From NCBI GenBank assembly GCA_032622095.1, contig CP136067.1, positions 94,292,707 to 94,356,706 on the forward strand: DNA of 64,000 nucleotides. Reading direction: 5' to 3'. Origin of the DNA: Siphonodentalium dalli (lineage: Eukaryota; Mollusca; Scaphopoda; Gadilida; Siphonodentaliidae). The notes beneath the pieces are model-generated. The model was not told the origin of the DNA, ran no database searches, and saw only the letters and a program-made list of their open reading frames with translations. Positions 725-43,324 of this stretch are shown here, in pieces. A program made the position numbers and the translations under genes. Within the stretch, counting starts at the first letter, position 1; every line of letters begins with the position of its first letter.

Positions 725-3700
725 CTGAAATAGAATTTTTTTTTGTTTAATTAAGAAATATGTAGGTAATACTGTTTCTTAGTCTCTTCGCTTCTCGGGA
801 TGGAGTGGGGGGGGGGGGGGGGGGGTCTGTATCATTATTAGACCTACCTCTCTGAATGTCATGTATACAGCTTTGAATCCTGGTTGTTTGGCATTATGCA
901 TGACTCGACAACTTCCATGCAGTAATCGCACACCTTCTCTCAAGCTGAGGGGGGTGGTATGTCTGGGAGAAGGGGGTCGATGGTTGTCTGATTATTAGAC
1001 CTACCTCTCTGAATGTCGTGTAGACAGCTTTGAATACTGGTTGTTTGGTGTTATGCATGACTCGACGACTTCCATGCAGTAATCGTACGCCTTCCTTCTC
1101 TGCCGGCTGACACAGGCTTTTATACATACAGTGATCTGTTCTATAATTCCAGTGACAATCATAAATGTACAATTGTTCTGAAAAAAAATAAATAAATAAA
1201 AACTTGTGATGTAATTCCCTCTTGGATGTCTTAATCTTAAGGCCATATAAACAAAATAGTTTGTTTTTCAGGGATTTTTTTTTTTAAAGTGATGAGGGAG
1301 GCAGTTATTTATATTTATTATTTTTTTCAAATTAATTCTGTGGTGAGGCAGGTATTTATTTATAAAGTATTTACTGGAATCCCATATTAAGCAGTAATAT
1401 GGGCAATATACCGAAGCAGGGAAGCTGCATGACCATCATATCATATATCAGATTTGTAATAGAGTTGTATAGAGCAAACAAGGACGTGGCTAGAGGGTCT
1501 CCATTAGGGGGGTGTGTCCACATTGGTAATTCCAACTGCACCCCCCCCCCCCCTTGAATCAAACCAAAACAGTCCTTGAATCAGACCAAATGTTTTGCAT
1601 AATTCCATTCCCTCCTTGCACCTAAGTGTTCACATGCCTAATAGCCTATTTATAAACCATGGTTCAATCTACCCGGTATCATAATATTCGTATATTTGAA
1701 CCTGAAAATTTCGCAAATCCTAACATCTACAGTAGTGGTCTAACTCCAGACAAATGCACACAACTATGGGCAATAGCCCAGGACACACCGGGCCAACTAT
1801 GGTTGTTCGGCCCGGTGTGAGAAAATTTTGAAAACTAAACAAGAAAATCGCTAAATCCTGGCATCTAGACTGACCTCAAGTTTTCCTAGTGTTGGAAATT
1901 TCAAACCTCATACTCTTCCTTAGTTTGGAAATTTTCCAACTGATGACCATTTTAACCAAATGTAGTAAAATATTGTTTTCTTACCAGACTAGGCTTACTC
2001 ACGAGGATGGGCTTACTGACCGGTGTATACAGTAATATCATTAGCAGATTTTTTATTGGCCACGGGGAGGGACCACGGCACACCGGGCCGACCATGGTTC
2101 GCCCCGGTATGCGAAAATTTTGAAATCTGAACAAGAAAATCGCAAAATCCTAGCATCTAGACTAGCCTCAAGCATTCATAGAGTTGGAATTTTCAAACCT
2201 GACACCGTGACTTAGGTTGGAAATTTCCAACTGATGACAATTCCAGTAACAATTTTGACCAAATGTAGGACAATATTGTTTTCTTAAATAAACTAGCAGT
2301 TTTTGACTGGTCACGGGGGAGGGACCAGGACACAAGCTTTCCAAGTGTTGGATATTTCCAACCTGACACCCCCTAAGGTTGGAAAATTTTCAACCGATGG
2401 CCATTTCAGTCCAATATTTTTACCAAAAGAAGGAAAATATGCAAATATTGGTCCAAAAACAATAAATTCCTCCCAATAAATTGTTTGGAAATCAAACTAC
2501 AAGAACATTTTCAACCTACTGTTGGCGTGAGACACCCCACCCCCCAACCCCCCTCTGTCGCCACGTCTCTGAGAGCAAACAGTTTGAGTTTTTCACTCAT
2601 ATGGCAGAAGATGCGAAAACTACATCGGTGAAATTTGACGTAACTCAGGGTGACCAGCCAGATCAAGCTTTATTGGAAGGAGTTCCACTGGACTACACAT
2701 GAATTGATAATATTAAATCACAACAATAATTTCTGAAATAAAAGGTTCATTTTCTAATTAATCAGACTTTCATAAAAATTACAACAAATGCACCAAAAAA
2801 AAAAATATACCAGTTGTTGTGGAACATGACATGAGCGATCTTGAAGTTTGGAATAGTGCTGATCCACAAACCAGTGTGCATTACATACAACAGCCACAAA
2901 CTGCCAACCCACACTGTCAACGCTATCATTTCGGAAGCCCACTTTGTTTTCACCTAACCAGTCAATGATTGAATGAATGAATTGCACAATTCGTCACGTT
3001 TGTTTTTCACATTTGTCTTACTGGGCAACACCACCTCATTGCAACTTGTCATCAGTACCGAGAATACATCAACTACTTCTCCCGATTTCTTCTGTGGTAC
3101 ATCTTCTTTGGTCACTCGAATTTGAAAATATCGTCCGAAAAATTGCGTGACTTCAGAAACCATGATGTCGCCTGCAACTGTGTCAAAGTCCCGTTTTGTT
3201 TTTGAAACAACCAGGTCAAAATCATCATCAATGTCTTTCGTGGACATGAAATCATCAGCCATTTGACGAACAGTTTTTGATCTGTTGACTGATATAATTG
3301 TCCATTTGCCTTCCGACGCATTCTGCACGATACAAATGTTCACCAAAGTTGCCATTTTGTTATTATTTTAAACAGGAAGTTCGCCGAATTATTCGCCCTT
3401 GTTGTTTGTGAATGTATAAAGTCCAGATAGATTTGCAGTCCAGATAGATTTGCAGTTTGCAGAAAGTTTCAAGACAAAGTTATCAGTCTGGGGCGGTTGG
3501 GATATGCGGTATTTATATATTTATTATTTACAGCTGCCAATAAATAAGGGGTAGCGCAGGTTTTTTTTGGGAGGCGGCGATCCCTGATAAATGAACCATT
3601 ATGTTTATATGGCCTAATATAAACTGATTCACACTCCTCGGCCAATCAAATTGCTCCAACCCATGAACATTATTTCTTGTATGAATCTGTATTTCGCCAG

Positions 3701-6700
3701 GACCAAAATATAGACTTGAGATAACACTCAATCAAGAAATTGGCATTAATGGCTCTGGGAAAAGTTTGGAGAGTAGCAGACGGGAGAACTCGATCAATTT
3801 CTATCTGACACCGACTCAACATTTCATGACAGTCTGTTCTAAATATAGTAATGAATAAATGCCCCAATTGATTATCTCATTATTTAATAAACTGTTGATA
3901 TAAAATCAATATTAATTGACAGAAACTTTTCCAGACAGGTGTTTTCGACTAATATTTATTATTTTATACCCTGGAAATTATATAAAATGTTTATAGGAAG
4001 AGATAATCCATCTCTAAAATGTTTGGTGGCTTGAATTAAAATGGAGATAAACAAGCGTGGAAATAGTGTGTCTGTCATTTGCATAATGAGGTCCCCAGAG
4101 GGTGAATTTAGTGACACTATCCCATACAGCTGGCTAGCATCACCAAATTCACCCTATGGAGACCCCATTCTGCTTTGGCCTCAACTTCTGGGAAGTATCT
4201 ATAGTATCAAATTAACATTCTTTTTAGTCACTTTATCCCTTCTGGGAAATTTGTATATCCCCTAATTTGCAGCAGATCAAATGCATAATCGAGGTGACTA
4301 ATGGTGCACATCACCAACTTCAACTGGGGAAACTTCAATCTGATCCTAGGTCTCCCATAGCAGTTGAGGCCTAAGCAGAATGAGGTTCCTAGAGGGTGAA
4401 TTTAGCATCACTAAATTCACCCTCTGGGGACCTCATTCTGCAAATGACAGACACACTATTTGCAGGATTGAAGATAACGGTACCCTGTATGGTTGGATAA
4501 TTGTGGATACGAGCATGAAAACAAGCCAACCTGTTCACAAACTTTTGTCCTCATATATCCAACTCATTAAAGTACGATTATCTCTTAAATGAAATTAGCT
4601 TACCTGGAAAATAGTGGAAATAAATATTAATGAGATCCTGGTCGCCCCATGTTATTTTTGTTTTATAATCTTTATAATATTCTGTGATTTTCTCAATCCA
4701 TGGAACCAATCTCAGCCTAGTCAAGTTCATTAACATCACGCCTGAATTTATACCTGAAAAAAATGAGGTTCATTAAAGACATATTATATGCACATTTCAC
4801 TACTTCAAACAGATATTTTACTATTCAATCACTACACCCATGTGATGAATTAATTGTTGAAAAATTCAACAACCTTGGATTTACTCTTTCTTAAAATACA
4901 TTATCTGAACTATGCAAATACCGGTATGTAAATAAGCAGTCTGTCATTCGTCCCGAACAAATTGCTGATAAACTAACGACAATGATTTCGCTAAAGAGAG
5001 TCACTATATTTTTGATTGTGTGCTGAGAAATTTGATACAAAATTCATTAAAACACCTGCTTTCAGCAAATTTAATCTGTGATAATGCATTCTTTTATTAG
5101 TGCGAGTCACACATATATAAGAGCATACATTGGCTTAGAATATTTACCTTGACCTTGTAAGCCAGTGCATTCTCTTATATATGAGAGGCTCCCTTTGGGA
5201 GAATTGCACATATAAGTGAATGCATTGGCACATGGTTTTCGCAAAATTTCAGGAAGCTCCAGTCATGGAATGTTTAACATCAATCCTGAATTTAAACCTG
5301 AAAGAAATATTTGCAGGTTCCTCTGTGTATAATTATGACATCCTTCAAATAAAACTTGACAATCAAAGATATATATAGAATATGTAGCTAATGCCGTCTC
5401 TTGAACGGTTTATATCAATGAGGGAGATTTGGCATCTATTGGACTCAATTTTCCCTCGTGGATATAAACTGTTTAAGCAACAGCATTAACAATGAATGGA
5501 ATTCAATTTACACCCCAACATCACCCTTCTATGATGCAATAAGTTCCTCAGTTGAACATGGTGATGTTCACCCATTAGTCACCTCAATTAAGCATTTTAT
5601 ATTTTGCAAATTAGGGAATATATAAACTGAACAGATGGGAAAATGTGTACTAAAAATAATGTCCCAAGCATCTTTTAGTATATGCTACAAAATGTGTAAC
5701 CATTACGAGCAAACCTACCTAAAGGGGGATAATAAGGATGTCATGCGAAGCATCCGTACCAAATCTTGGCTCGATCTGTCATGGGGCATAATAACATGTA
5801 AACTAAGTACTTACCTAAAGGGGGGTTATAAGGTTATTGTGCAAAACATCCATACCACCTCGTGGCTCGGTCTGTCATGGGGCATAATAACATGTAAACT
5901 AAGTACTTACCTAAAGGGGGGTAATAAGGTTATTGTGCAAAACATCCATACCACCTCGTGGCTCGGTCTGTCATGGGGCATAATAACATGTAAACTAACC
6001 TAAAGGGGGGTAATAAGGAATTTGTGCAAACCATCCATACCACCTCGTGGCTCGGTCTGTCATGGGGCTATATCAACAAATTCCTTATTACTCTCCTTTA
6101 GGTTAGTTTACATGTTATTAAATAACATGTAAACTAACCTAAAGGAGAGTAATAAGGAATTCGTGTGAAGCGTCCATACAAACTTGTGGCTTGGTCAAGT
6201 GACTCTATGCTAAAAGCTGCAATCTGGGAGGAGTTAAACTTAGTGAAGAAACTCCAAATATTCTCCATTGGATCGAGCAGCAAAACATCTGTGTCAAGGT
6301 AGAGCACTGAATCAACATTCTTTAGTATATACTACAAAAGATGAGTGAAGTATCATTAAAGGTAGAGCACTGAATCAACATTCTTTAGCATATACTACAA
6401 AAGATGAGCGAAATATCATTAAAGGTAGAGCACTGAATCAACATTCTTTAGCATATACTACAAAAGATGAGTGAAGTATCATTAAAGGTAGAGCACTGAA
6501 TCAACATTCTTTAGTATATACTACAAAAGATGAGCGAAATATCATTAAAGGTAGAGCACTGAATCAACATTCTTTAGTATATACTACAAAAGATGAGCGA
6601 AATATCATTATTAAAGGTAGAGCACTGAATAAACATTCTTTAGTATATACTACAAAAGATGAGCGAAATATCATTAAAGGTAGAGCACTGAATCAACATT

Positions 6701-9700: not shown

Positions 9701-12700
9701 ATGGTGTGGCGTAAATCTGTCATATGTGGCCTCATTCGAGTCAGGGGTGCACTGAAAGGGAGAGGGGCACCAAATTTTATACACATTATTTTTAGCGCCA
9801 ATTTCCACCAAATTGATACACGTTCTTATCCATGATACGAGGAATCTAATCGTGTGATTTAAAGACCCCATATTGGTGCTGTCTGTGTGAGCGATGGGGA
9901 GGGGAGGGGTGGGAACCAAATTTGATAAATATTTGTTTAGTCGCCGATTAGCACCAAACTTATAAATAATCATCTTCATGATATCAGGAGTCTAATTGTG
10001 TGATTTAAGGATGTCACAAGTGGGGCCATTCGAATAAGTGGTGTATAGAGGTGAGAGGGACACAAACAAAAATGATAACAATATGTTTAGCGCCGATTTC
10101 CACCAGATTGATACATATTCTTCTCCGTGATACGAGGAATCTTATCGCGTGGTTTAGATACACCGAATTGGTGCCCTCTGGGTGAGAGATACAAACGCAT
10201 AAACATAATCATCTCCACGATATGGCGCTGTTCGAGTCAGCGTTGCAGGGGGCATCAACAATTGATTTAATAAACTATTTTTAGCGCAGATTTCCACCAA
10301 ATTGATATATTGTTCTTCTCTATGATACGAGGAATATAATCGTGTGATTTAAAGACGCCAAATTGCTGCCGTTTGGGTGAGAGATGGGGGGGGGGGGGGT
10401 CTAATGGACGTGGTTTAAATATGTCAAAAGTGGCGCCGTTAAAGTCATGCATGAGGATGGCAGTTGCACCAAAGCTGATACAAATATATTTAGCACTAAT
10501 TTGCAGCAAATTAATACACGTTCTTCTCGAATGATACAATGAATTAAATCACATTTGGTGTCGTTTGGGTCACGGATGGCGAGAGGATATGCACTATCAT
10601 TAATAAGATTGCTATTCGCCGATATATCATTTTAAGGAGTTTTGGGCGTTCAAATTTCACAATCTCGACAAATGGTGACCCAATTAAGTCACTTGAATAA
10701 TTATATCTTCTCAACTGTCATATTTATATGGGGATGGCAATCAGGGAATTGGGAATTCACATAATGAGCTAGCAAAAAGAGATACATAGAAGACGCATTA
10801 AAAGTATATTTATCATTCTATTTAAGAGATACATATATTCTTGCAAACTGAGAGACCTTGAACCGTCAGAGGATTGCATATAATACAGTTTCCACAAACA
10901 AGTTACAATTTGTCAAGACATATGGAAATGTATCGGAGGCCTGTTCAAAAATAGTGGTCACAGTGTGCAGTCAATTATATTTTCGTCTGATATAAAAGAA
11001 AACGCATTCAGTAGCACATGAATTTTCAGGATCCTCCAATACTGACATCTGACAAGGGTATATCTGCCCAATACAGCTGAATTTTTAGAACAGACTCATC
11101 GACTAACATGTCTTATACACTGAGAATATTTAGCCAGTTTATAGCACCATGAACAGAGGAGCACCTGGAAATTTCTTTAAAACATATGTATCTTCATGGA
11201 GATATGATGGCCAGGTGTCCTCATGATCTTAGTCCAACTCACTAGATTGATTGATACATCTCTATATGTAAAACCCAATTGTTGTCTTTTATTTTTGCGA
11301 ACTAATGTGTTTATGATGTTCATGTATCATATTATAACGTCTAAAGTATACGCAGTTGTAAATAAATAAATACTTCATTATTGGTGGAACGTATTAATCG
11401 CGATAAACAAAATGACAATCGACAAGGTGAGCCACTACTTATATTCCATGACTGTGTAAGAATACTGTTTTGTGATGCTATTTGAATATACAATTTATGA
11501 GAATACATGTAACACTTTGAGCAAGAGTATTCTCTATTCCAAACAAATATCCACGTCATGCAGAGGGTTTTTTCACATCACTTTAACCTGGGCAACGCCG
11601 GGTAACCCTGCTAGTATACTATAAAAGATGAACAAATATCATTAAAGTACAAGTAAAGTAAAAGAGTAGGATCTATCTGTCCATCCCCCCTCTGTTCGGA
11701 TTTTTATCTCAGACCCTGGACAGATTTCTTGGTGACTCAGTGTACCCCGGCGGATGTTATAATTAGTATTTCAAAATTTTGATTAAAAAAATTATTATTT
11801 ATTACTTTTAAAGGCACTCAATCCGATCAAATTACTATTTCTTTGGCTTCGGGGGTAAAAAAAATAGTCCGAACTTTTCAAATTCAAATGAGTTCCACTG
11901 ATTGATCAGTCACACCATTAGAAGCAATAGCAATTTATATTTATTTTTCACATTTGGCTAAAATGGCTAATGGCAGCGCAAACACTGGCTATGGGAGACC
12001 TAGGATCAGATTGAAGTTCCCCAGTTGAAGTTGGTGATATTCACACATTAGTCACTCTCAATTATGCATTTTATCTTCAACAAATTAGGGGATATAGAAA
12101 CTGAACATAAGGGGAAAAAGTACCAAAGCAATGTTAATTTGAGACTGTAGATACCGGTACTTCCCAGAAGATAAGGCCTAAGCAGAACGAGGTCCACAGA
12201 GGGTGAATTTGGTGATGCAAGCTCGCTGTGCGGGGTAGCATCACAAATTTCACGCTCGGAAGACCTCATTATGCAAATGACAGACACACTATTTCAAGGC
12301 TCGGTTTTGACGTACCGGAACAAACATTCTCTGACTTGCGCATGGTTTGAACAGCTTTCTCCATTCTTCGGGGTCATAGGCCGATGGATATTGTATATCG
12401 TAGATATTGAGTTCAAGGTTATCTCTAAATTTCTTTGGCCACCCTTCAACCTGGAATTGAGACAACAGTTAACATATTTGTTTGAGATTATAGTAATGCC
12501 CTAAATAATCGACTCCTTAACCACAGCATAATTATGGGTAACTTTTCAGGATTAGGTCGGAAATATGGCTTTTTGCCATTCCTCGAAAAGCTCTCAATTA
12601 CCCATAATTCTGCTGTGGTTAAGGAGTCGATTATGTAGGGCATTACTGTATGCCTATACAGTCAATTTCAGTTAATTTAATATCGCTTAAGTGAATATTT

Positions 12701-15210
12701 CGGATATTTGCATAAAAATCGTCTGTACCAAACCATTTCCTTGTATGAAGACTGTTTCTTACCTCATTATTTGTTTCTAATGGTAATCTGCTCAAATCAA
12801 TTGAATATTTGAATATAAGTCGCCACTCCTTTCCAATATTTAAAAAATAATTCAGATTATTTTTGCATTCTGAGAGTTGTCTTCTGCGAAATCACATTGT
12901 AAATATTTTGAAATATTGGAAAGATGTGGCGAAATTGCTTCAAATATATGATTAATTTGAGCAGATGTACGTGGACCAGATAATGTTTCATGATATGAAA
13001 ACACAAAAAGTGAGAACATATGTCACCAAGCTTGAGTTAAACATCTGCAGCTCTAAAATCCAATTTTTATTTTTGGAAAACAACAAATTGTGGAAAAATG
13101 ACATAATTCAAATAAATTTTAAGTGAGTGAAGAAATTTACAACCAGAAGGGCAATTTTTATCAAAATGGACTCCTTCAGGCTTTTCGAGGCAGAAATTAT
13201 AATTACCTCAGTACGGCATTGTTTCTTTAGATCCTTGTCTGCAAACACATGGAACACTAGATGACTTTTAGTGAAAATGACGGCAGATTTCAGAACCACC
13301 AATGTCTCGTTCATTCGGTCACCACATGCCACCAGTACCAGATGTAGAGATTGCTTCCTCTCTCTAGAATGAAAGTTTCGATGACATTTTAGTATAGTAA
13401 ACATTTTGAAGATGATTATCTCTTTCTTAACTATTAAAATACTTATTGACGAGTGCAGGGACCAGCCATGAGATTAAAAATTTAGAGAAGTCACATCTCC
13501 CTGTTTGGCTAAGTGGACTCTTATCAAGAAAAGTGCATTCCGATAAATGGCAACAAGCCATATTTCCGACTAAATCCTGAAAAGTTACCCATAATTCTGC
13601 TGTGGTTAAGAAGTCGATTACTTAGAGCATTACTGTACATGTAGTATTGTAATGAGTGTTTTAAAAAAAATATGTTGTTGCTGTAATTTTGGCACCATCT
13701 TTAAAATAAGCAAAATTTTAAGGCAGACTACTATTCAATGGTCATGACTCCACCAACGTCATTGGCCAGTTTATAACAAATGTTTCACCTATTAGCTCTT
13801 TTGATTGGCTGTTCTTCATGAGTATTTTTAGCATCGATGTGTTCTTTGTTACCATCCTTTCCTTGATCGTTTACGATTCTATGAGCCTGTTGAGTTTGAT
13901 CATCTTTAATACCACTGTTATCTGGGGTTTCTACATCTAGTTCATCCTTGTTGTGAATTGCGCAGAACAAGCATACAGCGACTAAGATGATGACCATCAC
14001 ACCTATGGGAGGCCAAATTCACATTTAATATCGAATTGCGCTAAAGCGCAAATAGTTGCGCTTAACCACAAATACCACATATTGTGCTTAAGCACAAATA
14101 GGGCATTTACGTTTAAGCGTAATTAGTTGCGATTAAGCTTAATTAATTGCGCTTAAGCATAATTGTAACTACTATCTAACCTACCCATAAACTATTGGCA
14201 TGACCTGGTGTTTAACCTGGCAACACAAGAGGAGCATTGGGCTAATTTTAACCTGTTTTAATTAGCCTGAGTACTCAACAGTCAACTGTGAGTATGTGTT
14301 CAACAATGATAATCCCTAATTACATATTATCAGCATCCCTATATCCAAAAATTGATGTCTCGATCCTTCCCGGAACTCTAGTAATTTTTTATATGATGTT
14401 TTTTAATGTATTTTTGCACAGATTTGGGCCATTACTATGGTCATATCCTATAGCATGCATGTGGTGTCACTACATGTACATGAGGGCTTGCTTACCTCAT
14501 ATGGTTTACTTATTGACTTAAATCAGGGAAAAAACCCTATTTTCATATTATCAGCATCCCTGTCCCAAAAATTGGTGTCTCATTCCTGGAGCTTTGGTGT
14601 CTCGATCAGTCCTCGGGTTCTAGTGTTTTTTTTTATTAAATCAGCATCTCTTGCACAGATCTATAGTATTTCCATGGTCATGTAGTGTGAATGTGGTGTC
14701 ACTGAGGGCTTGCTTCCCTCATATGGGGTGCCTGTATACTCGAAAATTGAAGAAAACCAAAGTCGCCCGACTAATACAGAAAGTAATGCTATCGCGAGTG
14801 GCCCCAACTAATATACACAGAAGATAATATAATGCTATCACGAGTCGCTCCAACTATTAAAAACAGAAGGTAATTTAATACTATTGCGAGTCAGCCATTT
14901 TGATAAAGAAGTTGGGCTAGCTCCCTACCCATCCAAACCAATGAAAACGAGAGGTGATATGTCAATAGGAGTTAAGGTTAAGTTATGGATAAACCTATTT
15001 ATTCACCAGGGGTGTTTAGTTACATATAACTATGAATTGCGCTTAAGCGCAAATAATTGTGCTTAAGCGCAATTAATTGCACTTAAGCGCAAATAATTAC
15101 GCTTAAGCGCAATTAATTGAGCTTAATCGTAATTATTTGCGCTTCAGCGCAATTTATAAAATTATTAAATGTGAATTTGGCCTGCCATACACACCGAGCT
15201 TGAACAACAT
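554..15210 (-). CDS. Glucoside xylosyltransferase-like GT8 glycosyltransferase, copy B (tandem paralogue, exon 1 split by an insertion)
   Basis: Spliced CDS, minus strand: 15210-15195, 14002-13789, 13363-13207, 12450-12316, 6331-6139, 4753-4604, 1177-1005, 724-554. If the element in exon 1 is spliced out, the CDS is 1209 nt, exactly as in copy A. No stop or frameshift was found in any exon. Most differences from copy A are silent or conservative. The exception is the end of exon 4, where the family block W-Y-x-R-F-A-R-H-P-Y-Y-P-P reads L-Y-G-R-F-T-R-I-P-Y-Y-S-P. The DxD, WGDQD and HG blocks are intact. Intron 3 holds about 39 repeats of the exon 4 acceptor plus a Helitron, and intron 5 holds a Harbinger-like element. 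It could be a working gene, a gene with altered activity, or an early pseudogene; the open frame favours recent or present function. Confidence 0.82.
807..1000. repeat. Partial exon 6 copy and G-run, copy B intron 6
   Basis: One exon 6 partial copy (from about 833, junction with donor kept) lies beside a 19-G run at 807-825, matching the spacer type of copy A. Fewer units than in copy A, so the number changed after duplication. Confidence 0.82.
1005..1177 (-). CDS. Copy B exon 6
   Basis: 173 nt, acceptor TTTTTTCAG, donor GAGAG|GTAGGT. Encodes CHWNYRTDHCMYKSLC and LLHGSRRVMHNTKQPVFKAV. One partial copy lies at about 833-935. Confidence 0.9.
1241..3614. mobile_element. Harbinger-like element in copy B intron 5
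   Basis: 2374 bp, inverted ends GGCCATATAAACAWAAT, flanked by TAA on both sides (1238-1240, 3615-3617). Copy A carries the empty site (around 31205), so the insertion followed the duplication or was lost from A. A TWA target and GGCC-type ends are typical of PIF/Harbinger. The interior holds repeated CACCGGGCCGACCATGGTTC-like segments near 1780, 2080 and 2320. No transposase was recognised; it carries the reading frame at 2954-3355. Confidence 0.72.
2954..3355 (-). CDS. 133-codon reading frame of unknown function carried by the Harbinger-like element
   Basis: Starts MATLVNICIVQNASEGKW and is hydrophilic with a balanced, protein-like composition. At about 2965 it stops, but a coding-like continuation appears in another frame down to 2754 (W-L-G-E-N-K ... 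H-W-F-V-D-Q-H ... C-H-V-P-Q), so one frameshift probably truncated a protein of roughly 200 residues. I do not recognise the family. It is not a recognisable transposase and may be captured cargo. Confidence 0.5.
   Translation of the reverse strand: MATLVNICIVQNASEGKWTIISVNRSKTVRQMADDFMSTKDIDDDFDLVVSKTKRDFDTVAGDIMVSEVTQFFGRYFQIRVTKEDVPQKKSGEVVDVFSVLMTSCNEVVLPSKTNVKNKRDELCNSFIQSLTG
3857..4020. repeat. Dispersed repeat F5, copy B intron 5
   Basis: GATTATCTCATT ... ATTTATTATTTTATACCCTG ... AGAGATAATCCATC. Copy A counterpart at 31380-31527; other copies at about 22700-22842, 42200-42305, 53260-53530 and 53820-53920. Confidence 0.6.
4052..4470. mobile_element. F1 element in copy B intron 5
   Basis: CAAGCGTGGAAATAGTG start, TTTGCAGGATTG end, two GAGGT...ACCTC hairpins. 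The right-hand hairpin is shortened to the arms only. Imperfect 8-bp flanks. Confidence 0.7.
4604..4753 (-). CDS. Copy B exon 5
   Basis: 150 nt, acceptor ATTTTTTTCAG, donor CCAG|GTAAGC. The encoded protein is the same as copy A by eye (NSGVMLMNLTRLR, WGDQDLINIYF). Confidence 0.9.
5080..5270. mobile_element. F4-type foldback, copy B intron 4
   Basis: ATGCATTCTTTTATTAGTGC ... GCTCCAGTCATGGAATG with a ladder of TTATATATGAGAG words. Orthologous to 33000-33188. Confidence 0.62.
5690..6130. repeat. Tandem copies of exon 4 3' end plus donor, copy B intron 4
   Basis: Four direct degenerate copies of the last ~70 nt of exon 4 with the following donor, at roughly 5700, 5795, 5895 and 5985, plus one inverted copy ending at 6119. 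Each keeps the CCTTTAGGT-like junction. The copies carry stops or missense changes, so they are intronic relics. The apparent plus-strand open frame at 5635-6003 is a by-product of this array. Confidence 0.85.
6079..6161. repeat. Perfect 41-bp inverted repeat over the exon 4 donor of copy B
   Basis: Arms 6079-6119 and 6121-6161 are exact reverse complements with one base between. The arm contains the last 23 nt of exon 4, the GTTAGT donor and intron sequence. In the transcript it would fold into a 41-bp hairpin hiding the splice site. Copy A lacks it. Confidence 0.93.
6139..6331 (-). CDS. Copy B exon 4 (DxD exon, altered 3' end)
   Basis: 193 nt with acceptor CTTTTGTAG and donor TTTAG|GTTAGT. 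The D-T-D motif is intact. The last 20 residues differ from copy A at conserved places (W to L, A to T, H to I, P to S). The acceptor with 34 nt of this exon is repeated about 39 times upstream in the transcript, and the donor lies within a perfect hairpin (6079-6161). Confidence 0.85.
6298..8805. repeat. 63-bp satellite made of the exon 4 acceptor (about 39 units)
   Basis: On the gene strand each unit contains 29 nt of intron tail ending CTCATCTTTTGTAG, then the first 34 nt of exon 4 (coding Y-I-L-K-N-V-D-S-V-L-Y). Seven units carry an extra ATT and are 66 bp. A six-unit, 381-bp higher-order block occurs twice in a row (6988-7368 and 7369-7749) and looks identical. The first unit is the true exon 4 edge and the last is cut by the Helitron. 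Copy A has one unit only. Confidence 0.95.
8806..11614 (+). mobile_element. Non-autonomous Helitron, inserted in the copy B exon-4 satellite
   Basis: Starts TCTATATCTATATTTGCG followed by a GTCTGTCTGTCTG run, and ends with a GC-rich hairpin (GGGCAACGCCGGGTAACCC) and CTAG, the classic Helitron terminus. It sits between A (8805) and T (11615) with no target duplication. The left and right flanks rejoin to one satellite unit. The interior has degenerate tandem modules, including three near-identical ~118-bp blocks at about 8929, 9223 and 9449. No Rep/helicase frame was seen; open frames here are repeat shadows. Confidence 0.88.
11990..12305. mobile_element. Truncated F1 element, copy B intron 3
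   Basis: Only the middle and the right hairpin remain (CATTATGCAAATGACAGAC end). The right end abuts exon 3. Confidence 0.65.
12316..12450 (-). CDS. Copy B exon 3
   Basis: 135 nt, acceptor ATTCCAG, donor CCG|GTACGT. Encodes VEGWPKKFRDNLELNIYD and RKLFKPCASQRMFVP. The antisense strand shows a misleading open frame here. Confidence 0.87.
12491..12648. mobile_element. TA-flanked hairpin (family F2), copy B intron 2
   Basis: Inverted repeat beginning AGTAATGCCCTAAATAAT and ending GGGCATTACTG, with shortened arms. Counterpart in copy A at 38860-39001. Confidence 0.75.
13207..13363 (-). CDS. Copy B exon 2
   Basis: 157 nt, same splice sites as copy A (CATTCTAG acceptor, GAG|GTAATT donor). Encodes SLHLVLVACGDRMNETLVVL and FHVFADKDLKKQC. 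No frame damage. Confidence 0.87.
13539..13635. mobile_element. Half F2 element
   Basis: Only the right arm (CCGATAAATGGCAACAAGCC to GAGCATTACTG) remains, in copy B intron 1. Confidence 0.65.
13789..14002 (-). CDS. Copy B exon 1b (anchor and stem)
   Basis: Begins right after CTCCCATAG and runs 214 nt to an AATAG|GTGAAA donor. Encodes the signal anchor MVIILVAVCLF and a stem near-identical to copy A. The 16 + 214 nt equals the 230 nt of the intact exon in copy A. Confidence 0.72.
14004..15189. mobile_element. Introner-like terminal-inverted-repeat element inside copy B exon 1
   Basis: 1186 bp with inverted ends of about 26 bp (TATGGSAGGCCAAATTCACA). It is flanked by a perfect 6-bp target duplication, CACACC, at 13998-14003 and 15190-15195. 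Copy A has the same exon uninterrupted with a single CACACC. Inside both ends lie irregular arrays of GCGCTTAAGCGCAATTAATT-type motifs (14030-14170 and 15035-15155). There is no long open frame, so it is non-autonomous. On the gene strand its borders create a GT...AG intron of 1192 nt. The superfamily is not assigned. Confidence 0.85.
15195..15210 (-). CDS. Copy B exon 1a (16 nt: ATG to mid codon 6)
   Basis: Encodes M-L-F-K-L and the first base of Gly-6. It is followed by GTGTGTATGG, a usable 5' splice site formed by the target duplication plus the end of the inserted element. Exists as a separate exon only if the 1192-nt intron is spliced. Confidence 0.6.
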
Positions 15211-15283
15211 CCATCGCCTTCTGATACTGTGAATCAAATAGAGCACAGTCATGTATCAGAATTAAAAATCATTGCCCAAAGTA

Positions 15284-15482
15284 CAGTAATGCCCTAAGTA
15301 ATCGACTCCTTAAACACAGCAGAATTATGGGTAACCTTTCAGGATTTAGTCGGAAATATGGCTTGTTACCATTCACCGAGAGCTTTCCGATGAATGGCAA
15401 CAAGCCATATTTCCGACTAAATCCTGAAAAGTTACCCATAATTCTGCTGTGTTTAAGGAGTCGATTAATTAGGGCATTACTG
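15284..15482. mobile_element. F2 hairpin just upstream of copy B
   Basis: CAGTAATGCCCTAAGTAATC to GGGCATTACTG, about 95-bp arms nearly perfect, TA on both sides. Copy A has no insertion here, so it is post-duplication. Confidence 0.88.
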
Positions 15483-26980: not shown

Positions 26981-27025
26981 TATACACTATGGTGTTTACA
27001 ATAGAGAACATTCATCTGACACATA

Positions 27026-27775: not shown

Positions 27776-27812
27776 CGAGAATAATCTCAAGAATACTCCC
27801 AGTCCAGGTATA

Positions 27813-29742: not shown

Positions 29743-29913
29743 CTACCTGATGCCTTTGTTGCTATGACCGTCTTTAAACATGTTATGCAGGACGTTTTCC
29801 ACGTTCTTCCAGTACGCACTCTCCAGTCGACCACAGTATCCCTGGTCCTTGACTTCTGTCACCTTATTTTTGAGAGTTTCTAACAGTTTCATAGGCCCGT
29901 CATTCAGATTGTG
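29743..29913 (-). CDS. Copy A exon 7 (C-terminal exon, stop TAG)
   Basis: Acceptor TATTTCAG, phase 0, 171 nt ending in TAG. Encodes about 56 residues including KVTEVKDQGYCGRLESAYW, which resembles the weakly conserved C-terminal tail of GXYLT (the ...TVHTYCG region). Copy B has an equivalent exon of identical length. Confidence 0.78.
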   Translation of the reverse strand, partial: HNLNDGPMKLLETLKNKVTEVKDQGYCGRLESAYWKNVENVLHNMFKDGHSNKGIR

Positions 29914-32900
29914 CTGAAATAGATTTTTTGTTTGTTTAAAGCCACATGGCGGTTTGCGATCCAAAATACACATAATATTAATGGTTCCAGCTCAAGATTG
30001 CATGATTTAGACAACTTTTGTGAACCAATTTCACAATAAACATTGAATAGATCACCCGGTGGAAATTTCATGATTGTCAGTGATACAAAGAGAAATCAGC
30101 TCCTTCTCTCAGACTGAGGGGGGTATGTCTGGGAGGAGGGGGGTGGTCTGTCCGATTATTAGACCTACCTCTCTGAATGTCATGTAGACGGCTTTGAATA
30201 CTGGTTGTTTGGCTTAATGCTGGAACTCAACGACTTCCATGCAGTAATCGCACACCTTCTCTCTCGGGATGGAGGAGGAGGGCCTGTATCATTATTAGAC
30301 CTACCTTTCTGAATGTCGTGTAGACGGCTTTGAATACTGGCTGTTTGGCATTATGCATGACTCGATGACTTCCTTGCATTAATCACACTCTTTCTCTCAG
30401 GCAGATGGGGGTGGGGGGTGTCATATGTCTGGGAGGAGGAGGAGGGGGTATGTCTGGGAGGAGGGGGTCAATGGTTGTCTGATTATTAGACCTACCTCTC
30501 CGAATGTCATGTAGACAGCTTTGAATACTGGTTGTTTGGCATTATGCATGACTTGACGACTTCCATGCAGTAATCACACACCTTCTCTCAGACTGAGGGG
30601 GGGGGGGGGGGGGGGTGGTGGTATGTCTTGGAGAAGGGGGTCGATGGTTGTCTGATTATTAGACCTACCTCTCTGAATGTCGTGTAGATGGCTTTGAATA
30701 CTGGTTGTTTGGCATTATGCATGACTCAACGACTTCCATGCAGTAATCGCACACCTTCTCTCTTGGAATGGAGGAGGGGGGGTCTGTATCATTATTAGAC
30801 CTACCTCTCTGAATGTTGTGTGGACGGCTTTGAATACTGGTTGTTTGACATTATGCATGACTCGATGACTTCCATGCATTAATCACACTCTTTCTCTCAG
30901 GCTGAGGGGGGGGGGGGGTGGTATGTCTGGGAGAAGGGGGTCGATGGTTGTCTGATTATTAGACCTACCTCTCTGAATGTCGTGTAGACAGCTTTGAATA
31001 CTGGTTGTTTGGCATTATGCATGACTCGACGACTTCCATGCAGTAATCGCACACCTTCCTTCTCTGCTGGCTGACACAAGCTTTTATACATACAGTGATC
31101 TGTTCTATAATTCCAATGACAATCATAAATGTACAATTGTTCTGAAAATAACAAAATAAAAACTTGTGACGTAATTCCCTCTTGGGTGTCTTAATCTTAA
31201 TCTTAATCTTAATATAAACCGATTCATACTCCTCGGCCAATCAAATCGCTCCAACCCATGAACAATATTTCTTGTATGAATCTGTATTTTGCCAGGGCAA
31301 AAATATAGACTTGTGATAATACTATCTGACATCGACTCAACATTTCATGACAGTCTGTTCTCAAAATAGTAACGAAAAAGTGCCCAATTGATTATCTCAT
31401 TAAGTAAGAAAATGACAATATAAAATCAATATTAGAATAGAAGCTTTTCCAGACAGGTGTTTTCAACTAATATTTATTATTTTATACCCTGGAAATTATA
31501 TATAGGAAAAGATAATCCATCTTTAAAAATAGTGTGTCTGTCATTTGCATAATGAGGTTCCCAGAGGGTGAATTTAGTGACACTATCCCACACAGCTGGC
31601 TAGCATCACCAAATTCACCCTATGGGGACCCAATTCTGCTTTGACCTCAACTTCTGGGAAGTATCTATAGTATCAAATTAACATTATGTTTAGTCACTTT
31701 ATTCCTTCTGGGAAGTTTCTATATCCCCTAATTTGCAGCAGATAAAATGCATAATCAAGGTGACTAATGGTGCACATCACCAACTTCAACTGGGGAAACT
31801 TCAATCTGATCCTAGGTCTCCCATAGCAGTTGAGGCCTAAGCAGAATGAGGTTCCTATAGGGTGAATTTAGCATCACTAAATTCACCCTCTGGGGACCTC
31901 ATTCTGCAAATGACAGACACACTATTTGCAGGATTGAAGATAACGGTACCCTGTATGGTTGGATAATTGTGGATACGAGCATGAAAACAAGCCAACTCGT
32001 TCACAAACTTTTTTCATGCATCCTCATATATCCAACTCATTAAAGTACGTTTATCTATTAAATGAAATTAGCTTACCTGGAAAATAGTGGAAATAAATAT
32101 TAATGAGATCCTGGTCGCCCCATGTTATTTTAGTTTTATAATCTTTATAATATTCTGTGATTTTCTCAATCCATGGAACCAATCTCAGCCTCGTCAAGTT
32201 CATTAACATCACTCCTGAATTTATACCTGAAAAAAAAAGAAAGAGGTTCATTAAAGACATATTATATGCATATTTCACTACTTCAAACAGATATTTTACT
32301 ATTCAATCACTACACCCATGTGATGAATTAATTGTTGAAAAATTCAACAACCTTGGATGTACACTTTCGTAAAATACAATATCTGAACTATGCAAATATG
32401 TAAATAAGCAGTCTGCCATTCGTCCCGAACAAATCGCTGACAAACTTGTGATGTAATGACGACACATATATATGATACCAATCTTTAATGTATGATGTAT
32501 AATACACAATCAATGTATACAAAAGAAGTCGCTGAATTAATGTGTACAAAGCCGCGAAGTGATGGCCCCGAATGATAGGTGATGCCCGGTTTAAGTATAG
32601 GAACCTCAAGACAAGATGAGTCAAGTGAAAGCATGAAGTGATGGGGTGTAGCGGTGTCTTATATACTCTTGGGATGAATATAGGATGAGATATTTGGCAA
32701 TACACATCGGCATTGGCTCTGCCGTTATGGTCATTCCCTATGACCATATTTGGGGGATCGCCTTCATTGTGTGTGGGTCTGAGCTGTGATTAAGATGTGC
32801 GAGCTGAGGTTCCTGTAAGGAACCGAGCACTGATATTGAGTTCTATACTATACTTAGCACGTTAGCACAGGGGGACGATATAGTTATGTCACAAACTAAC

Positions 32901-35900
32901 GACAATGATTTCGCTAAAGAGAGTCACTATATTTGATTGTGTGCTGAGAAATTTGATACAAAATTCATTAAAACACCTGCTTTCAGCAAATTTAATCTGT
33001 GCTAATGCATTCTTTTATTAGTGCGAGTCACATATATATAAGAGCATACATTGGCTTAGAATATTTACCTTGACCTTGTAAGCCAGTGCATTCTCTTATA
33101 TATGAGAGGCTCCCTTTGGGAGAATTATATATATATGTGAATGCATTGGCACATAGTTTTCGCAAAATTTCAGGAAGCTCCAGTCATGGATTGTTTAACA
33201 TCAATCCTGAATTTAAACCTGAATTTAAATCTGTGTATAATTATGACATCCTTCAAGTAAAACTTGACAATCAAAGATATATATAGAATAATTAGCTAAT
33301 GCCGTCTCTTGAACGGTTTATATCAATGAGGAAGATTTGGCATCTATTGGACTCAAATCTCCCTGGTGGATATAAACTGTTTAAGCAACGGCATTAACAA
33401 TGAATGAAATTCAATTTACACCCCAACATCACCCTTCTATCATGCAATAAGTTCCCCAGTTGAAGTTGGTGATGTTCACCCATTAGTCACCTCAATTAAG
33501 CATTTTATATTCTGCAAATTAGGGGATATAGAAACTGAACAGAAGGGAACAAGAGCAAACCGTCGGGGTGTGGCATAATACGCCCGTTTCTGGAGTAGAG
33601 TGGGGCATGTAGACAGAACACATATTTGAATTTGAGCTGTATACCAAATTTGGTTCAGTTCACTTGATTCAATCTAAAGTTATCATTCGGAAACCGCAAA
33701 TCAGGTAAAATCTAAGTTGAAAAAGGGGCATAACTCAGTCAAAATCATGCGGACGAAACCCATATTCGAACTTGATCTTTATTTTGGTGTGGTAAACTAA
33801 CATACCAAATTTGGTTCAGTTCACTCGATTCAATCTAAAGTTATCATCCAGAAACCAAAAGCGGACAGACGGACGACGGACGGACAACGGACAGACGGAC
33901 GGACAACCCATTTACATAATACGACCGTTTTTTCAAACGGGCGTATAAACAGTAATAATGTCCCCAGCATCTTTTAGTATATGCTACAAAATGTGTAACC
34001 ATTACGTGCAAATCTACCTAAAGGGGGATATTAAGGATGTCATGCGAAGCGTCCATACCAAATCTTGGCTCGATCTGTCATGGGGCTTAATAGCATGTAA
34101 ACTTAGTACTTACCTAAAGGGGGTAATAAGGATATTGTGCAAAGCATCCACACCACCTCGTGGCTCGGTCTGTCATGGGGCATAATAACATGTAAACTCA
34201 CCTAAAGGGGGATAATAAGGATGTCTTGCGAAGCGTCCGTACCAACTCGTGGCTTGATCTGTTGATTCTAAGCTAACTCCCGCTATCTGGGAGGAGTTAA
34301 ACTGATTGAAGAAACTCCAAATATTCTCCATTGGGTCGAGCAGCAAAACATCTGTGTCAAGGTAGAGCACTGAATCAACATTCTTCAGTATATACTACAA
34401 AAGATGAGTGAAATATCACTAAAGTACCTGAAAGTACAAGTAAAGTAAAAGAGTAGGATCTGTCTGTCCGTCCCCCCTCAGTTCGTGTTTTTCTCCCAGA
34501 CCCTGGACAGATTTCTTAGTGACTCAGTGTACCCCGGCAGATGTTATAACAGCATTAGTATTTCAAAATTTTGATTTAAAACAAATTATTATTTTTAATA
34601 ACAAGAACAATGCAAGGGAATGGCAAAATACGTAAGTGTAATTTCAACAATGGGCCATAACTCAAGTGAAAATTGGAGGCAGAACCTAAATTCGAACTTG
34701 ACTTGTTTTTTGTGCTAGCAAACCCTCATACCAAATTTCAGTCCATTCAGTTCAGACTTACTAAAGTCATCAACAGGAAACCAAAAGCGAATGGACAGAC
34801 GGACGGACATTGATTGAGCAAGGAGTTCAATCTAAACAAAAATAAAAATAAAATTCTTTAACTTTAACAGACTTGAGCTCACAGAGATAAAATTTCAATT
34901 TGAACCAAAGAAAGGAAGTTTTCAGAGTCATCACTAGCTACGAAGAGCTCAAGTGTAATAGTGCCCTGCAAATCGGGGGTTTTCATTTCAAATAGAATCA
35001 GGCAGAAGATTCAAAATTGCATCGGATCTCGAATAAAATCATTGTGTCAAGTAAACAATAAATACATGTAGTGCAGGTATGAAACAGTTAAAGACATATT
35101 ACAGACTTGTTTGGTTGTGCAAAATTGATAAGTTAGTACTCAGACACTATGCGAACAGGAGGAATGTAACAATTTAATAACATCACCGAAAATCTCAATC
35201 AAATTGACCATACCACTCAATTGTCTGAACTACACTCAATTTTATATATTTACTTCTCGATTCGGGACGCAACTAAATTAACGCAAACAAATTCGGAAAT
35301 GAGAGTTACTGCATTTAATTAATATATAAGAATGATGGTGTGTGTTTGTCAATTTGGATACAATATTTGTAACAAATAACAACTTTGAGCAAGATTAGTT
35401 TCCATTTCTATTTGATCATCTTACCGGAGTGTTTCACATCACTTTAATAGAAAACTCAAAATGGTGGCCATAATAATTCGAAACCTCACTATGATAAGAG
35501 ATCATTAATGAAATATGATTTAAATGGATCATGTTCTTATCTAATCAAAGTAATTCGACATAAAAGACACCTTCAGCAGTGACAGCCACTCCATAATACA
35601 AACTGCTAACATCATTAACAGAGGCTGCGCCACAAAAAAAAATTAATTGAGTCTCAGACAATTTTTTCTGAATCAATGAGGGAGGGAAAACTTTATATTT
35701 AGCATGGATTATAATAGCTTTCCTTGTCTAGTAATGGTCCGAAAATTTTGCATCCGCTTATTTAATCTGATGTAAAAATTATATTGTGGCACTAGTATAC
35801 CTGTATTACAAAGGGAAATATTAAGATATTAGCCATTTCATGATGCTGGTGCAGCATTAAAGATCATGTACCAATGTATTCTCTTATATATGCGAGTCTC

Positions 35901-38248
35901 CCATAGGGAGCATGGTATATAATAAGAGATTGCACTGGCTTACAAGGGTCGTGGTGGGAGATGTGCTGGTGCAGCATTAAAGATCCTGTTCCAATACATT
36001 CTCCCATAGGGAGCCTCGCATATATAAGAGAATGCACAAGCTATACAATATATTATATATTGTTAGGCCAATGTATTCTCTTATATAAGCGAGGCTCTCT
36101 ATGGGAGACTCACATATATAAGAGATTGCATTGGAACATGGTTTTCGCAAAATTTCAAGAAGCTCCAGTCATGGAAGGGTTAAGTAAACAAACAGCCGTT
36201 TGTTGAATGAATTATTTGAACATTTCCTTAGGGAACTACAGTAATGCCATAAATAATCGACTCCTTAACCGCATCAGAATTATGGGTAATTTTTCAGGAT
36301 TTAGTCGGAAATATGGCTTGTTGCCATTCATCGGAAAGCTCTGTGTGAGCTTTCTGATGAATGGCAACAAGCCATATTTCCGACTAAATCCTGAAAAATT
36401 ACCCATAATTCTGATGCGGTTAAGGAGTCAATTATTTAGGCCATTACTGTATTTGTCAGTGAGTGTTTAGTAAAGGAAGGGTTAATCAGCAGTGATAACT
36501 ATGTAACAACAGACTGAGAGATGGGTGGCATTGTCAGAACAAACAATTAGGGAAAAGAGTAAATAAAACTCCAGCGGAAAATACAACAAAGCTTTTATAG
36601 ACGACCTGTTTAATAAGAGAGCACATTGATGATTGTTTGTCTGGATATCAATGTTAGTTCAGGTGATCCTTTGACCGTGAATTAGTTTTATCTAGATCTG
36701 CCTGTGAGTGGCAAAATATAGTTGACAAGGATATCTCCCAAAACCATCAATGGACCACGAAGCAACAGATTTTATTTTATCATGCTGGCCTATTGGATTG
36801 ACCAATGAGAATGTAGATCTACTGACAGGATATGAGGGTATATTAGGTTCACTTTGATTGACACTAACCCCATATTGAAAGCCCCAGGGGGTATATGGAT
36901 TCATATGGGGTCGATAGATGCCATCTTGTTTTTATTGGAACCCTGCCGCCTCGGGGATATTTTCGGTGTATTTTGGCACCAAGAAAAGGGAAATTTGTCG
37001 GAAATCATGTTTTGCAAATTTAAAGACTAAGTACCATGTACCAAAACATGTATGTGATATACTTGAGGAATTCTAAATACTCATAAATGAATTATCAAAC
37101 TCAATTTGTTGTCCTTCTTCTGGTGATTAGCTATTGACTCAATCCGTTGACGTTCAACGACATGCTGCGTCACTGTGACGTTACATAAGTTAATGGCCAT
37201 ATGAGACATATTTAACTTACTAGATTACTGAACTTCGTACAAGAAATTAAAATTCTCACATGGAAAGCATGATAAAATCGTTACAGGACTCTTTGTTGCC
37301 GGCTACAGTGACAAATGAGGCTCAGCGAGATAAATATTGGGCGAGGCGCTACAAAAAACTTAATATCTAAATATTTCTTACATATGAATAGGAATCCTTA
37401 TGTGAATCTATTTTTATCTGTTCATCTGTCTGTGGTATGCATATATTTCCTGAATACCCCTTAAGATGAAGAATAGACCAATCCAATGTATACTTTGTTT
37501 ATTTCGATCATAATATCGTGGTGAAATCTATAGACGTAATGCAATTTGCCGTGATTGAGGGTGCCACTAACATAGACCACCTGTTTAAAGACATATTATG
37601 GACTTGTTCGAGTATGTGAAACTGGTAAGTTAGTATTCAGGCACCATGCCAACTGGAGGAATGTAACATTCTACTAACATAGCCGAAAATCTGAAGCAAA
37701 TCGACCTTACCATTCCAAAGAAAACATCGTCAAAACTACGCTCAAATCTAGATTCGGGACGCAACTATCGGCGATAAACTTATGAAAATTATTTTGCCAC
37801 CGAGAGTCACTGCATTTCATTAATATATAAGAATGACGGTGTGTGTTGTCAACTTGGATATAATATATGTAAAATATAACCACATTGAGGAAGATTATTC
37901 AACATTTTTATTTGATCACCCTACTGGAGTGTTTCACATCACTTTAATAAGAGACCACATTGATGATTGTTATTCTGGATATCATTGTTAGTTTGGGTGA
38001 TCCGTTGACCGTGATTCAGTTTGAACTACCGGTACATGCATTCGAATAGATACATGTAGTAAAGACTAGTCCAAATAGTGTAAAGTTTACTTTATCAAGG
38101 GAACCTGAGTGATCATCTTATGAACTGATTTAAAATATTTGCACCTGTCTTAAATACTTTCTACATAATTCATCAAAGAAATAGTCTGAACTGTTCATAT
38201 TCAAATGAATTCCACTGATTGATCAGTCACACCATTAGACGTAATGGT

Positions 38249-38293
<45 letters not shown>

Positions 38294-41200
38294 AATAGCA
38301 ATTTCTATTTATTTTTTGCATTTAGCTAAAATGGCTAACGGCAGCGCGAACCCTGATTATGGGAGACCTAGGATCAGATTGAAGTTCCCCAGGTGAAGTT
38401 GGTGATGTTCACCCATTAGTCATCTCGATTATGCATTTTATCTTCTACAAATTAGGGGATATAGAAACTGAACATAAGGGGAAAAAGTATCTAAAAACAA
38501 TGTTAATTTGAGACTATAGATACCGGTACTTCCCAGAAGATAAGGCCTAAGCACAATGAGGTCCACAGAGGCTGTATTTAGTGATTCAAGCCCGTTGTAT
38601 GGAGTAGCGTCAATAAATTCAGCATCTTAGGACCTCATTCTGCAAATGACAGACACACTATTTCAAGACTTGATTTTGACGTACCGGTATAAACATTCTC
38701 TGACTTGCGCAGGGTTTGAACAGCTTTCTCCATTCTTCGGGGTCGTAACCCGATGGATATTGTATATCATAGATATTGAGTTCAAGGTTATCTCTATATT
38801 TCTTTGGCCACCCTTCAACCTGGAATTGAGACAACAGTTAACATATTTGTTTGAGATTACAGTAATGGCCTAAATAATCGACTCCTTAACCTCACTGAGA
38901 GCTTTCCGATGAATGACAACAAGCCATATTTCCGACTAAATCCTGAAAAGTTAAACATTATTCTGCTGTGGTTAAGGAGGCGATTATTTAGGGCATCACT
39001 GTATGCCTATACAGTCAATTTCAGTTAATTGAATATCGCTTAACTGAATATTTCTGATATTTGCATAAAAATCACCTGTACCAAACCATTTCCTTACCTG
39101 TTTCTTACCTCTTTATTTGTTTCTAATGGTAATCTGCCCAAATCAATTGAACATTTGAATAAAAGTCGCCACTCCTTTCCAATATTTAAAAAATAATTCA
39201 AATTATTTTTGCATTCTGATTATTGTCTTCTGTGAAATCACTTCGTAAATATTTTTGAAATATTGGAAAGGAGTGGCGATATTGCTTCAAATATGTGATT
39301 GATTTGAGCAGATGTGGACGAGATAATATTTCATGATATGAAAACACAAAAGGTGAGAACATGTCACCAAGCTTGAGTTAAACATTTGCAGCTCTAAAAT
39401 TATTATTTTTTTTGGAAAACGACAAATTGTGAAAAAATGACGTATTTCAAATAAATTTTAAGTGAGTGAAGAACTTTACAGACCAGATCAGACCAGAAGC
39501 GCAATTTTTATCAAAATGGACTCCTTCAGGCTTTTAGAGGCAGAAATTCTAATTACCTCAGTGCGGCATTGTTTCTTTAGATCCTCGTCTGCAAACACGT
39601 GGAACACTAGATGACTTTTAGTGAAAATGACGGCAGATTTAAGAACCACCAACGTCTCATTCATCCTGTCACCACATGCCACCAGTACCAGATGTAGAGA
39701 TTTCTTCCTCTCTCTAGAATGAAAGTTTTGATAAAAATAAAGCACAATTTGACAGTAAACATTTTGAAGATGATTATATCTCTTTCTTTACTATTAAAAT
39801 ACTTATTGATGATTACAGGGACCAGCCGTGAGGTTTCAAATTTAGAGAAGACACATCTCCCTGTTTGGCTATTAGCAAGAAGTGGACTCTTATCAGGGAA
39901 AAGTAACAATGAATGAATTTCAATTTTCACCCCAAACTCACCCTTCTATGATTCAATAAGTATTATGCAACATCAGAGCCCATTTATAAAACCATTATAG
40001 TGAGTAAGAACACCATTATAATCTGTAAATGCACTTTAAATATGCTGTTCCGACATATGCATACTGGTATATCAGAGAGAAGTCACTTCTCCTTAAGACA
40101 ATAACAGGGAGAAGTTACACATTTTAGAGAGAAGTGTCTCCCAAGTAGTCCTCTAGGCTGATCCCTGAAAAAGTAGTTCCCTTAGGCCAAAGTGAAATAG
40201 ATCTGTGTTACTGGTGACCCGCCTGCCCTTATTCCTGCATCCCCGACCGTTTTCATTTGATTGATTTTGCAAAATTAGTATGCATCCGATTGTATTTTCC
40301 AAGTAAACGGATTCATTTCCATGTAAAACGGACACATCGCTTGCACAGTTAACCGGAAATTATACCAATTAAACTTACTTTTTTAAATAAAACAATAAAT
40401 TACACTATATTCTAATATTAGTAGTTCCCTTAGGAAATGTTCAGATTTTAAGCTGTCATTTGCTGAACTTATTATTTTCCTCCAATGAATATGTATCCTT
40501 CTGCACTTATATTATATTTTCCCTGTCCGTTACCTGCTTTTATTACTTGAACATCCCTCTAGCTGAATAATAGACCATTCCAATGTATACTTGATTAACT
40601 GAATGGGAGAATCCATTCAATATAGAAAGGGTTAAGGTAAATCTCTTCCCTGTACTTTTGTTTATATTTAACCCTTTCATTGCCAAGTCCAATTTTTGTA
40701 ACCCATATTTCCTTGATCATTTTTAAAATTTATTGATTATAATAATGTGATACATTGATAGAAAGAGCTCAAAAGAGCTCTTTCAATCAATGTATCACAT
40801 TATTATAATCAATAAATTTGAAAAATGATCAAGGAAATATGGGTTGATACAAAAATCGGACTTGGCACTGAAAGGTTTAAAGTAATAATTTGAGTAGGAG
40901 ACCAGTCAACACATCGGTGGTTTGGATTTGCTGTTGAAATTAAGAAGGAATTTCATGAGTATTCATCTAAACACTCCTTATTTTAAGTTGCATTTTCTTT
41001 TGACAAGAATGCTATGAACCCTTAAAGTCATGTGGAACACTCAGCTCGGGGTGATAGAACACTATGAAGACTAAAAGTCATGTGGAACACTCATTTCGGG
41101 GTGGTCAAACACTATGAAGACTAAAAGTCACATGAAACACTCAGATCGGTGATGGAACGATGCAAACATTTAACGACATGTAGAACACTCAGCTCGGGGT

Positions 41201-43290: not shown

Positions 43291-43324
43291 CCTTCGCCTT
43301 CTGATACTGTGAATCAAATAGAGC

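Follow-up and report, generated by a model that had tools for sequence, protein, structure and literature searches.

A transposon in exon 1 of a glucoside xylosyltransferase-like gene of Siphonodentalium dalli as a candidate intron with a possible change of start codon

Transposons inserted in exons can be removed from pre-mRNA, as has been shown with RNA for Ds and dSpm of maize and for Tc1 of C. elegans, and this removal is often imprecise. Introners, as described by Gozashti et al. (2022; PMC9860276), are DNA transposons that take one splice site from the target duplication; a family had to include at least four similar annotated introns, and a preference for GC-rich motifs tends to go with enrichment of a family in genes. 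The paper found introners in no group of land plants and in just two groups of animals. Here we analyze a stretch of 64,000 nucleotides (hereafter, the window) from the scaphopod mollusc Siphonodentalium dalli (contig CP136067.1, positions 94,292,707 to 94,356,706), in which a 1186-bp non-autonomous DNA transposon interrupts the first coding exon of a glucoside xylosyltransferase-like gene. The gene, copy B, belongs to a tandem cluster that forms a four-gene array (A, B, C and D). The insertion lies in a register that would allow the element to be spliced out. We tentatively favour, without calling it probable, the reading in which the element is removed through its 3′ end and translation proceeds from a new ATG at position 13997.

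An earlier note, made from the letters of this DNA, had placed the element between two copies of CACACC in exon 1, and its borders were reproduced to the base (Table 1). The inverted ends, TATGGGAGGCCAAATTCACATTTAAT and, inverted, TATGGCAGGCCAAATTCACATTTAAT, are 26 bp long and match at 25 of 26 positions. A search with the end pattern retrieved two matches only, which are the two ends of the element (mean for shuffled sequences, 0.00). CACACC, which reads GGTGTG on the gene strand, is present on both sides of the element, and copy A, in agreement with the same note, has one CACACC and no insert (43270-43275). The flanks of the insertion site in A and B are identical at 92.6% over 297 bp and at 98% over 55 bp. 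Since exon 1 is also uninterrupted in paralogues C and D, which brings the empty sites to three, the insertion in B is the derived state. Both C and D carry an in-frame TGA just upstream of the start, and the lengths there differ by 2 nt. The upstream sequence is therefore non-coding in them, and the start of B was taken as ATG 15210. A frame starting further upstream was rejected on the same evidence, even though the start of most orthologues lies further upstream, the difference reaching 10 residues. With the start at ATG 15210 the insertion site falls in codon 6, phase 1, where it had been placed before.

On the minus strand, the insertion yields a donor, TCG/GTGTGT, and an acceptor, CCCATAG/GTGTG (slashes mark the exon borders), and the interval between them, 15194..14003, is the 1192-nt GT..AG interval proposed in the earlier note. 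The pyrimidine tract of the acceptor comes from the inverted repeat, the A from the terminal TA of the element and the G from the duplication. Removal of the interval does leave an uninterrupted reading frame, as that note stressed. However, a target duplication flanks any such insertion, and restoration of the frame is therefore automatic and uninformative; only the GT..AG register carries information. Given TA..TA ends and a 6-bp target, this register arises on the gene strand at 44 of 1190 six-mers of copy A exons (3.7%) and at 3.0% of window six-mers on either strand. The chance content of the register is thus about 1 in 30. The new donor scores 5.87, within the range of 0.07-10.56 spanned by the natural donors of A and B (12 in all), which places it in the top 2.3% of the 3509 GTs on the gene strand. 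The new acceptor is a TAG with pyrimidines at 9 of 12 positions, the natural acceptors of A and B having 5-12; a YAG with at least nine pyrimidines is found at 6.6% of 3316 background AGs.

If both sites were used, 15195 would be joined to 14002, the ancestral mRNA and the protein from ATG 15210 would be restored, and B would have gained a new phase-1 intron. The exact register, the good donor and the pyrimidine-rich acceptor all speak for such precise restoration, as does the frame, which is open through 402 codons from the ATG. Some constraint also appears to be left on B, whose nonsynonymous share is below neutral (P 0.018). We nevertheless consider this outcome unlikely. In a precisely spliced exon 1 the first ATG would be one at 15214, which is out of frame, has a strong context and opens 26 codons that overlap the original start; the piece upstream of the element would be an internal exon of 32 nt if a conserved ACAG were used as acceptor; and a register that amounts to a 3-4% coincidence is unremarkable among at least a thousand copies of the element.

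Three B-derived changes lie near the insertion site. An A to T change made ATG 15214, located 4 nt before the original start (AAGG in A, C and D). A C to T change at a CpG made an in-frame ATG at 13997, which abuts the duplication (ACG in A, C and D). The third, GTA to GTC, is silent. Judged by the Kozak rule, the start context is strong at 15214 (GCGATGG) and at 13997 (GTGATGG) and weak at the original ATG of B. All four copies have the acceptor-like ACAG ahead of the 32-nt piece. Skipping is frequent for internal exons shorter than about 50 nt, and 32 nt is within this size.

We propose that the arrival of the ~1.2-kb non-autonomous transposon at codon 6 was a recent chance event, and that the end of the element serves as a 3′ splice site through which it would leave the mRNA. 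If ACAG is used, the stretch from it to the new donor becomes a 32-nt internal exon, and part of the splicing may skip this piece together with the old start that it carries. With the piece skipped, or with transcripts beginning lower, ATG 13997 would be the first useful start. The protein would then be read mainly from this codon, losing seven N-terminal residues (MLFKLGV) and keeping its membrane anchor. A fully specified version, in which the transposon made the 3′ splice site and led to the moved start, the 32-nt piece being skipped, the 214-nt piece being entered via the element end plus the duplicated G, and a later C-to-T change making the ATG, is rather improbable as a whole. The new ATG could also be used if the element were not spliced and supplied a promoter or a 5′ untranslated region, transcription beginning in or near its gene-proximal end. 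The in-frame position of ATG 13997 directly after the target duplication and its strong context would suit this arrangement, and the last 147 nt of the retained element hold three upstream ATGs whose frames, of 14, 25 and 1 codons, all stop before ATG 13997. The ACAG common to A, C and D suggests, however, that the ordinary transcript starts further up, and we consider an unspliced element very unlikely.

Several observations weigh against removal of the element through its 3′ end with translation from ATG 13997, those that concern splicing being given here and those that concern the state of copy B in the next two paragraphs. Transcription may begin at ACAG, which would then be no acceptor, and the 32-nt piece could be included in the mRNA. 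ATG 13997, being a CpG transition, may be neutral. On a weight matrix built from only 12 sites the new acceptor is poor, 87% of 3313 AGs scoring as high or higher, and ACAG is mediocre, 42% of AGs scoring as high as that of A. Intron 3 of B contains a 63-bp tandem array (6332-8754), made of units that include the acceptor motif of exon 4, TTTTGTAG, along with the bases that open this exon. There are 38 copies of this motif in intron 3 of B, the genuine one included, versus 2 in A; the copies are potential decoy splice sites and could spoil splicing.

The insertion is young, to judge by its distance of 2.6-3.4% from the family consensus. Compared with a leave-one-out consensus of 20 copies, the element differs at 33 of 1009 sites (Kimura two-parameter distance 0.034); at well-determined sites the count is 25 of 961, with nine insertions or deletions. 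Because this consensus was drawn from the 20 copies that match the element best, the age of the insertion may be underestimated. With counting begun at the ATG, 40 synonymous and 28 nonsynonymous changes separate A from B (synonymous divergence dS 0.185; nonsynonymous-to-synonymous rate ratio omega 0.16, 95% interval 0.09-0.25). Polarization by C and D, which left 12 of the 68 differences unassigned, attributes 11 nonsynonymous and 20 synonymous changes to A (omega 0.14) and 15 and 10, respectively, to B (omega 0.38); the difference between the copies is not significant (Fisher P 0.11). Five codons upstream of the ATG are left out of these counts, which drops the nonsynonymous change R5W of B and moves the A/B contrast from P 0.065 to 0.11. 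Copy B is intact and perhaps relaxed, and constraint on it may be in the process of being lost.

Copy B may be dying, i.e., broken by the insertion and without a useful product, the open frame reflecting its youth and gene conversion from A. The B-derived changes W230L and A235T are consistent with this, both being losses at residues that C retains and that do not vary among 13 mollusc orthologues (numbering follows the alignment query and runs 5 higher than a count from the start methionine). The higher omega of B than of A, albeit not significantly so, the derived out-of-frame ATG 15214 and the excess of acceptor motifs in intron 3 point the same way. Introns of A and B diverge by 3-4% around exon 5 (4061-5641) versus about 11% around exons 2-3 (11926-13511), which suggests patchy gene conversion between the two copies; part of B may have been kept intact by conversion from A. 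On the other hand, the 402 codons of B contain no stop or frameshift, an outcome with a probability of 0.006-0.02 under neutrality since the insertion when insertions and deletions are calibrated on introns, and of about 1e-5 or less when they are calibrated on the element. For exons 1-4 alone, the corresponding values are 0.05-0.10, which is less telling, and about 0.001 or less. A dying copy B is an explanation that we take seriously and still judge unlikely. The earlier note had argued that the otherwise open frame suggests splicing. The frame is indeed open through seven exons, but the argument from it is weakened because the insertion is young, constraint on B tends to be lower than on A (P 0.11) and the upstream ATG 15214 is found in no copy but B. 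H237I was rejected as a further B-specific loss, since copy C has I too. At this codon of exon 4 (34202-34394 in A; same numbering), A and the 13 orthologues have H, and B and C have I; A seems to have regained the conserved H237 by two changes or by conversion.

The transposon family was studied in the 2.23-Gb assembly of nine contigs. A DNA search with the element gave 4258 first-look candidates, of which 40 were scored, the main family copies matching at 85-91%. The element and the family copies have TA..TA termini. Duplications of 6 bp, varied in sequence and with at most one mismatch, flank 14 of the 14 complete copies among 20 fetched, two of which (L017 and L027) have common flanks. The combination of TA..TA termini with 6-bp duplications is a mark of IS3EU and GingerRoot transposons (PMC10045372, in the part available to us) and is shared by the element, whose assignment to this group is one by termini and duplication length, not by transposase. 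An exact 20-mer of the inverted repeat had no match in viral contigs.

The perfect 25-nt end occurs 2780 times in the genome, and 37 of these ends follow GGTNNN, compared with about 30 expected by arithmetic from the window GC content of about 37%. These 37 do not include the gene-upstream end of the element in the window, which carries a single mismatch. Hence no GGT target preference is seen at the perfect ends of the family; the earlier note had proposed a genome search to see whether the family lands repeatedly with GT in the target duplication. Of the 37 ends, 30 were examined as loci, and 17 of them belong to complete copies whose duplications agree at 5 or all 6 bases; four of these copies (L036, L043, L044 and L045) have one common flank. 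In the 17 copies, whose downstream flank is only 142-497 bp in 16 cases, the open stretch that spans the restored site reaches 24-83 codons at its longest, and in B it reaches 92 codons by the same measure; random upstream positions (n 1200) gave a median of 57, a 90% point of 182 and a maximum of 226. A Pfam search with frames from six of the 17 copies gave two matches below curated cut-offs and none above. There is thus no sign of a coding-exon site in the 17 complete GGT copies, a result of low power, since B itself scores only 92 open codons. These counts, a weak test where coding exons are concerned, do not bear out the suggestion that the element belongs with the introners.

The locus shares with introners, as they are presented in the available part of PMC9860276, a DNA transposon that has inverted ends and lies in an exon between target duplicates, empty paralogous sites, a GT from the duplication with most of the putative 3′ site from the element, and a splicing outcome that would leave mRNA length unchanged. 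Unlike introner families, it offers one candidate intron, whose splicing is putative, and there is no GGT bias among 2780 ends; the element, at 1186 bp, is also longer than the family medians of 30-654 nt given there. An IS3EU/GingerRoot-like non-autonomous transposon of opportunistic behavior fits better than an introner family, and the insertion looks like a lucky landing, not the work of a specialized intron maker. The 6-bp duplications and TA ends provide a frame-neutral GT..AG register in about 3-4% of exonic landings. It follows that, given thousands of ends, a family need not be a specialized introner to produce an intron candidate now and then. As with Ds, dSpm and Tc1, the spliceosome may remove an exonic transposon at or near its ends; here the register is precise and is read from DNA alone. 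If the element is spliced, the locus provides a young transposon-made intron in an animal with a large genome, with three uninterrupted paralogues fixing the direction of change. If the start has moved as well, a transposon-made intron would be rescuable by start relocation, a route not described in the part of PMC9860276 available to us.

The host gene was identified through copy A. Its protein matches Glyco_transf_8 (E 2.9e-15), aligns along its whole length with 13 mollusc relatives and has a hydrophobic N-terminal stretch that we read as a type II anchor. The best ten of the 120 protein matches listed are 50-54% identical to it, several being named glucoside xylosyltransferase and those that carry names being molluscan, and none of the 120 is closer; a search of solved structures gave six distant GT8-type relatives. 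The host protein thus has a Glyco_transf_8 domain and, along its length, GXYLT-type sequence. The domain, the hydrophobic stretch and the identity of the ten best matches are what it has in common with GXYLT1 and GXYLT2. Unlike these, the host genes are tandem, diverged paralogues, and among 98 positions invariant in the 13 mollusc orthologues A departs at 7 and B at 10; xylosyltransferase activity is putative. Copies A and B have seven exons each, with GT..AG introns and phase-compatible borders. When 15194..14003 is removed, B reads through its 402 codons to a stop with no internal stop, and A does likewise.

Table 1. Features of copies A and B and of the inserted element (window coordinates)
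Feature	Position	Strand	Basis
Non-autonomous DNA transposon, 1186 bp, 26-bp terminal inverted repeats, subterminal TTAAGCGC-type palindromic repeats	14004..15189	.	inverted ends, family copies
Target-site duplication CACACC, gene-downstream copy; first G (14003) completes AG acceptor	13998..14003	.	
Target-site duplication CACACC, gene-upstream copy; 15195 is last exon base, 15194-15193 is GT donor	15190..15195	.	
Candidate GT-AG intron, 1192 nt, codon 6 phase 1	14003..15194	-	removal keeps seven-exon frame open
Copy B exon 1, left piece, 32 nt, after acceptor-like ACAG; 5′ untranslated bases, original ATG 15210, derived out-of-frame ATG 15214	15195..15226	-	use of ACAG as acceptor putative
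Copy B exon 1, right piece, 214 nt; new in-frame ATG 13997 directly after target duplication (ACG in A, C, D)	13789..14002	-	
Copy B exon 2	13207..13363	-	
Copy B exon 3	12316..12450	-	
Copy B exon 4; B-derived W230L, A235T	6139..6331	-	
Copy B exon 5	4604..4753	-	
Copy B exon 6	1005..1177	-	
Copy B exon 7 with stop codon	554..724	-	
Copy A exon 1, uninterrupted; empty site 43270-43275	43061..43306	-	
Copy A exons 2-7: 39713-39557, 38819-38685, 34394-34202, 32226-32077, 31141-30969, 29913-29743	29743..39713	-	

The last exon was assigned with a profile of 13 orthologue C-termini. The best matches were the open stretches that hold 554-724 in B and 29743-29913 in A (E 0.004 and 0.011); the third was an unrelated plus-strand stretch at 13041 (E 0.035), and a stretch at 22.4 kb gave E 0.67. 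Because 554-724 and 29743-29913 match best, in gene order and with good splice sites, an alternative last exon at 22.4 kb in A, whose counterpart in B at about -7047 to -7160 has an in-frame stop and would have marked B as broken, was dropped together with that stop. Both copies hold incomplete duplicates of exon 6 (the VMHNAKQPVFKAVYTTFRE stretch) in the interval that separates exon 6 from exon 7, at 810-967 in B and 30131-30890 in A; stops occur in some of them.

Paralogues C and D lie on the same contig below the window, at negative window coordinates, with exon 1 of C from about -13253 downward and that of D from about -32582 downward. All seven exons were matched in C, and exons 1, 2, 5, 6 and 7 in D (window coordinates about -50000 to -10000). 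A fifth GXYLT-like gene is present at C5:16958000-16977999. Exon 5 was matched there twice, about 1.2 kb apart and with equal score, and is possibly duplicated.

The inverted match that links about 8.8-11.6 kb to 55.3-58.1 kb is not copy A exon 1, and Rfam at gathering thresholds gave no matches. In copy A, a dispersed repeat, absent from B, occupies 43325-43690, about 18 bp upstream of the acceptor-like site of exon 1. An abundant fold-back (inverted-repeat) element is found across the window (15282-15490, 13532-13640, 24063-24282, 26761-28022 and others), once just upstream of B exon 1.

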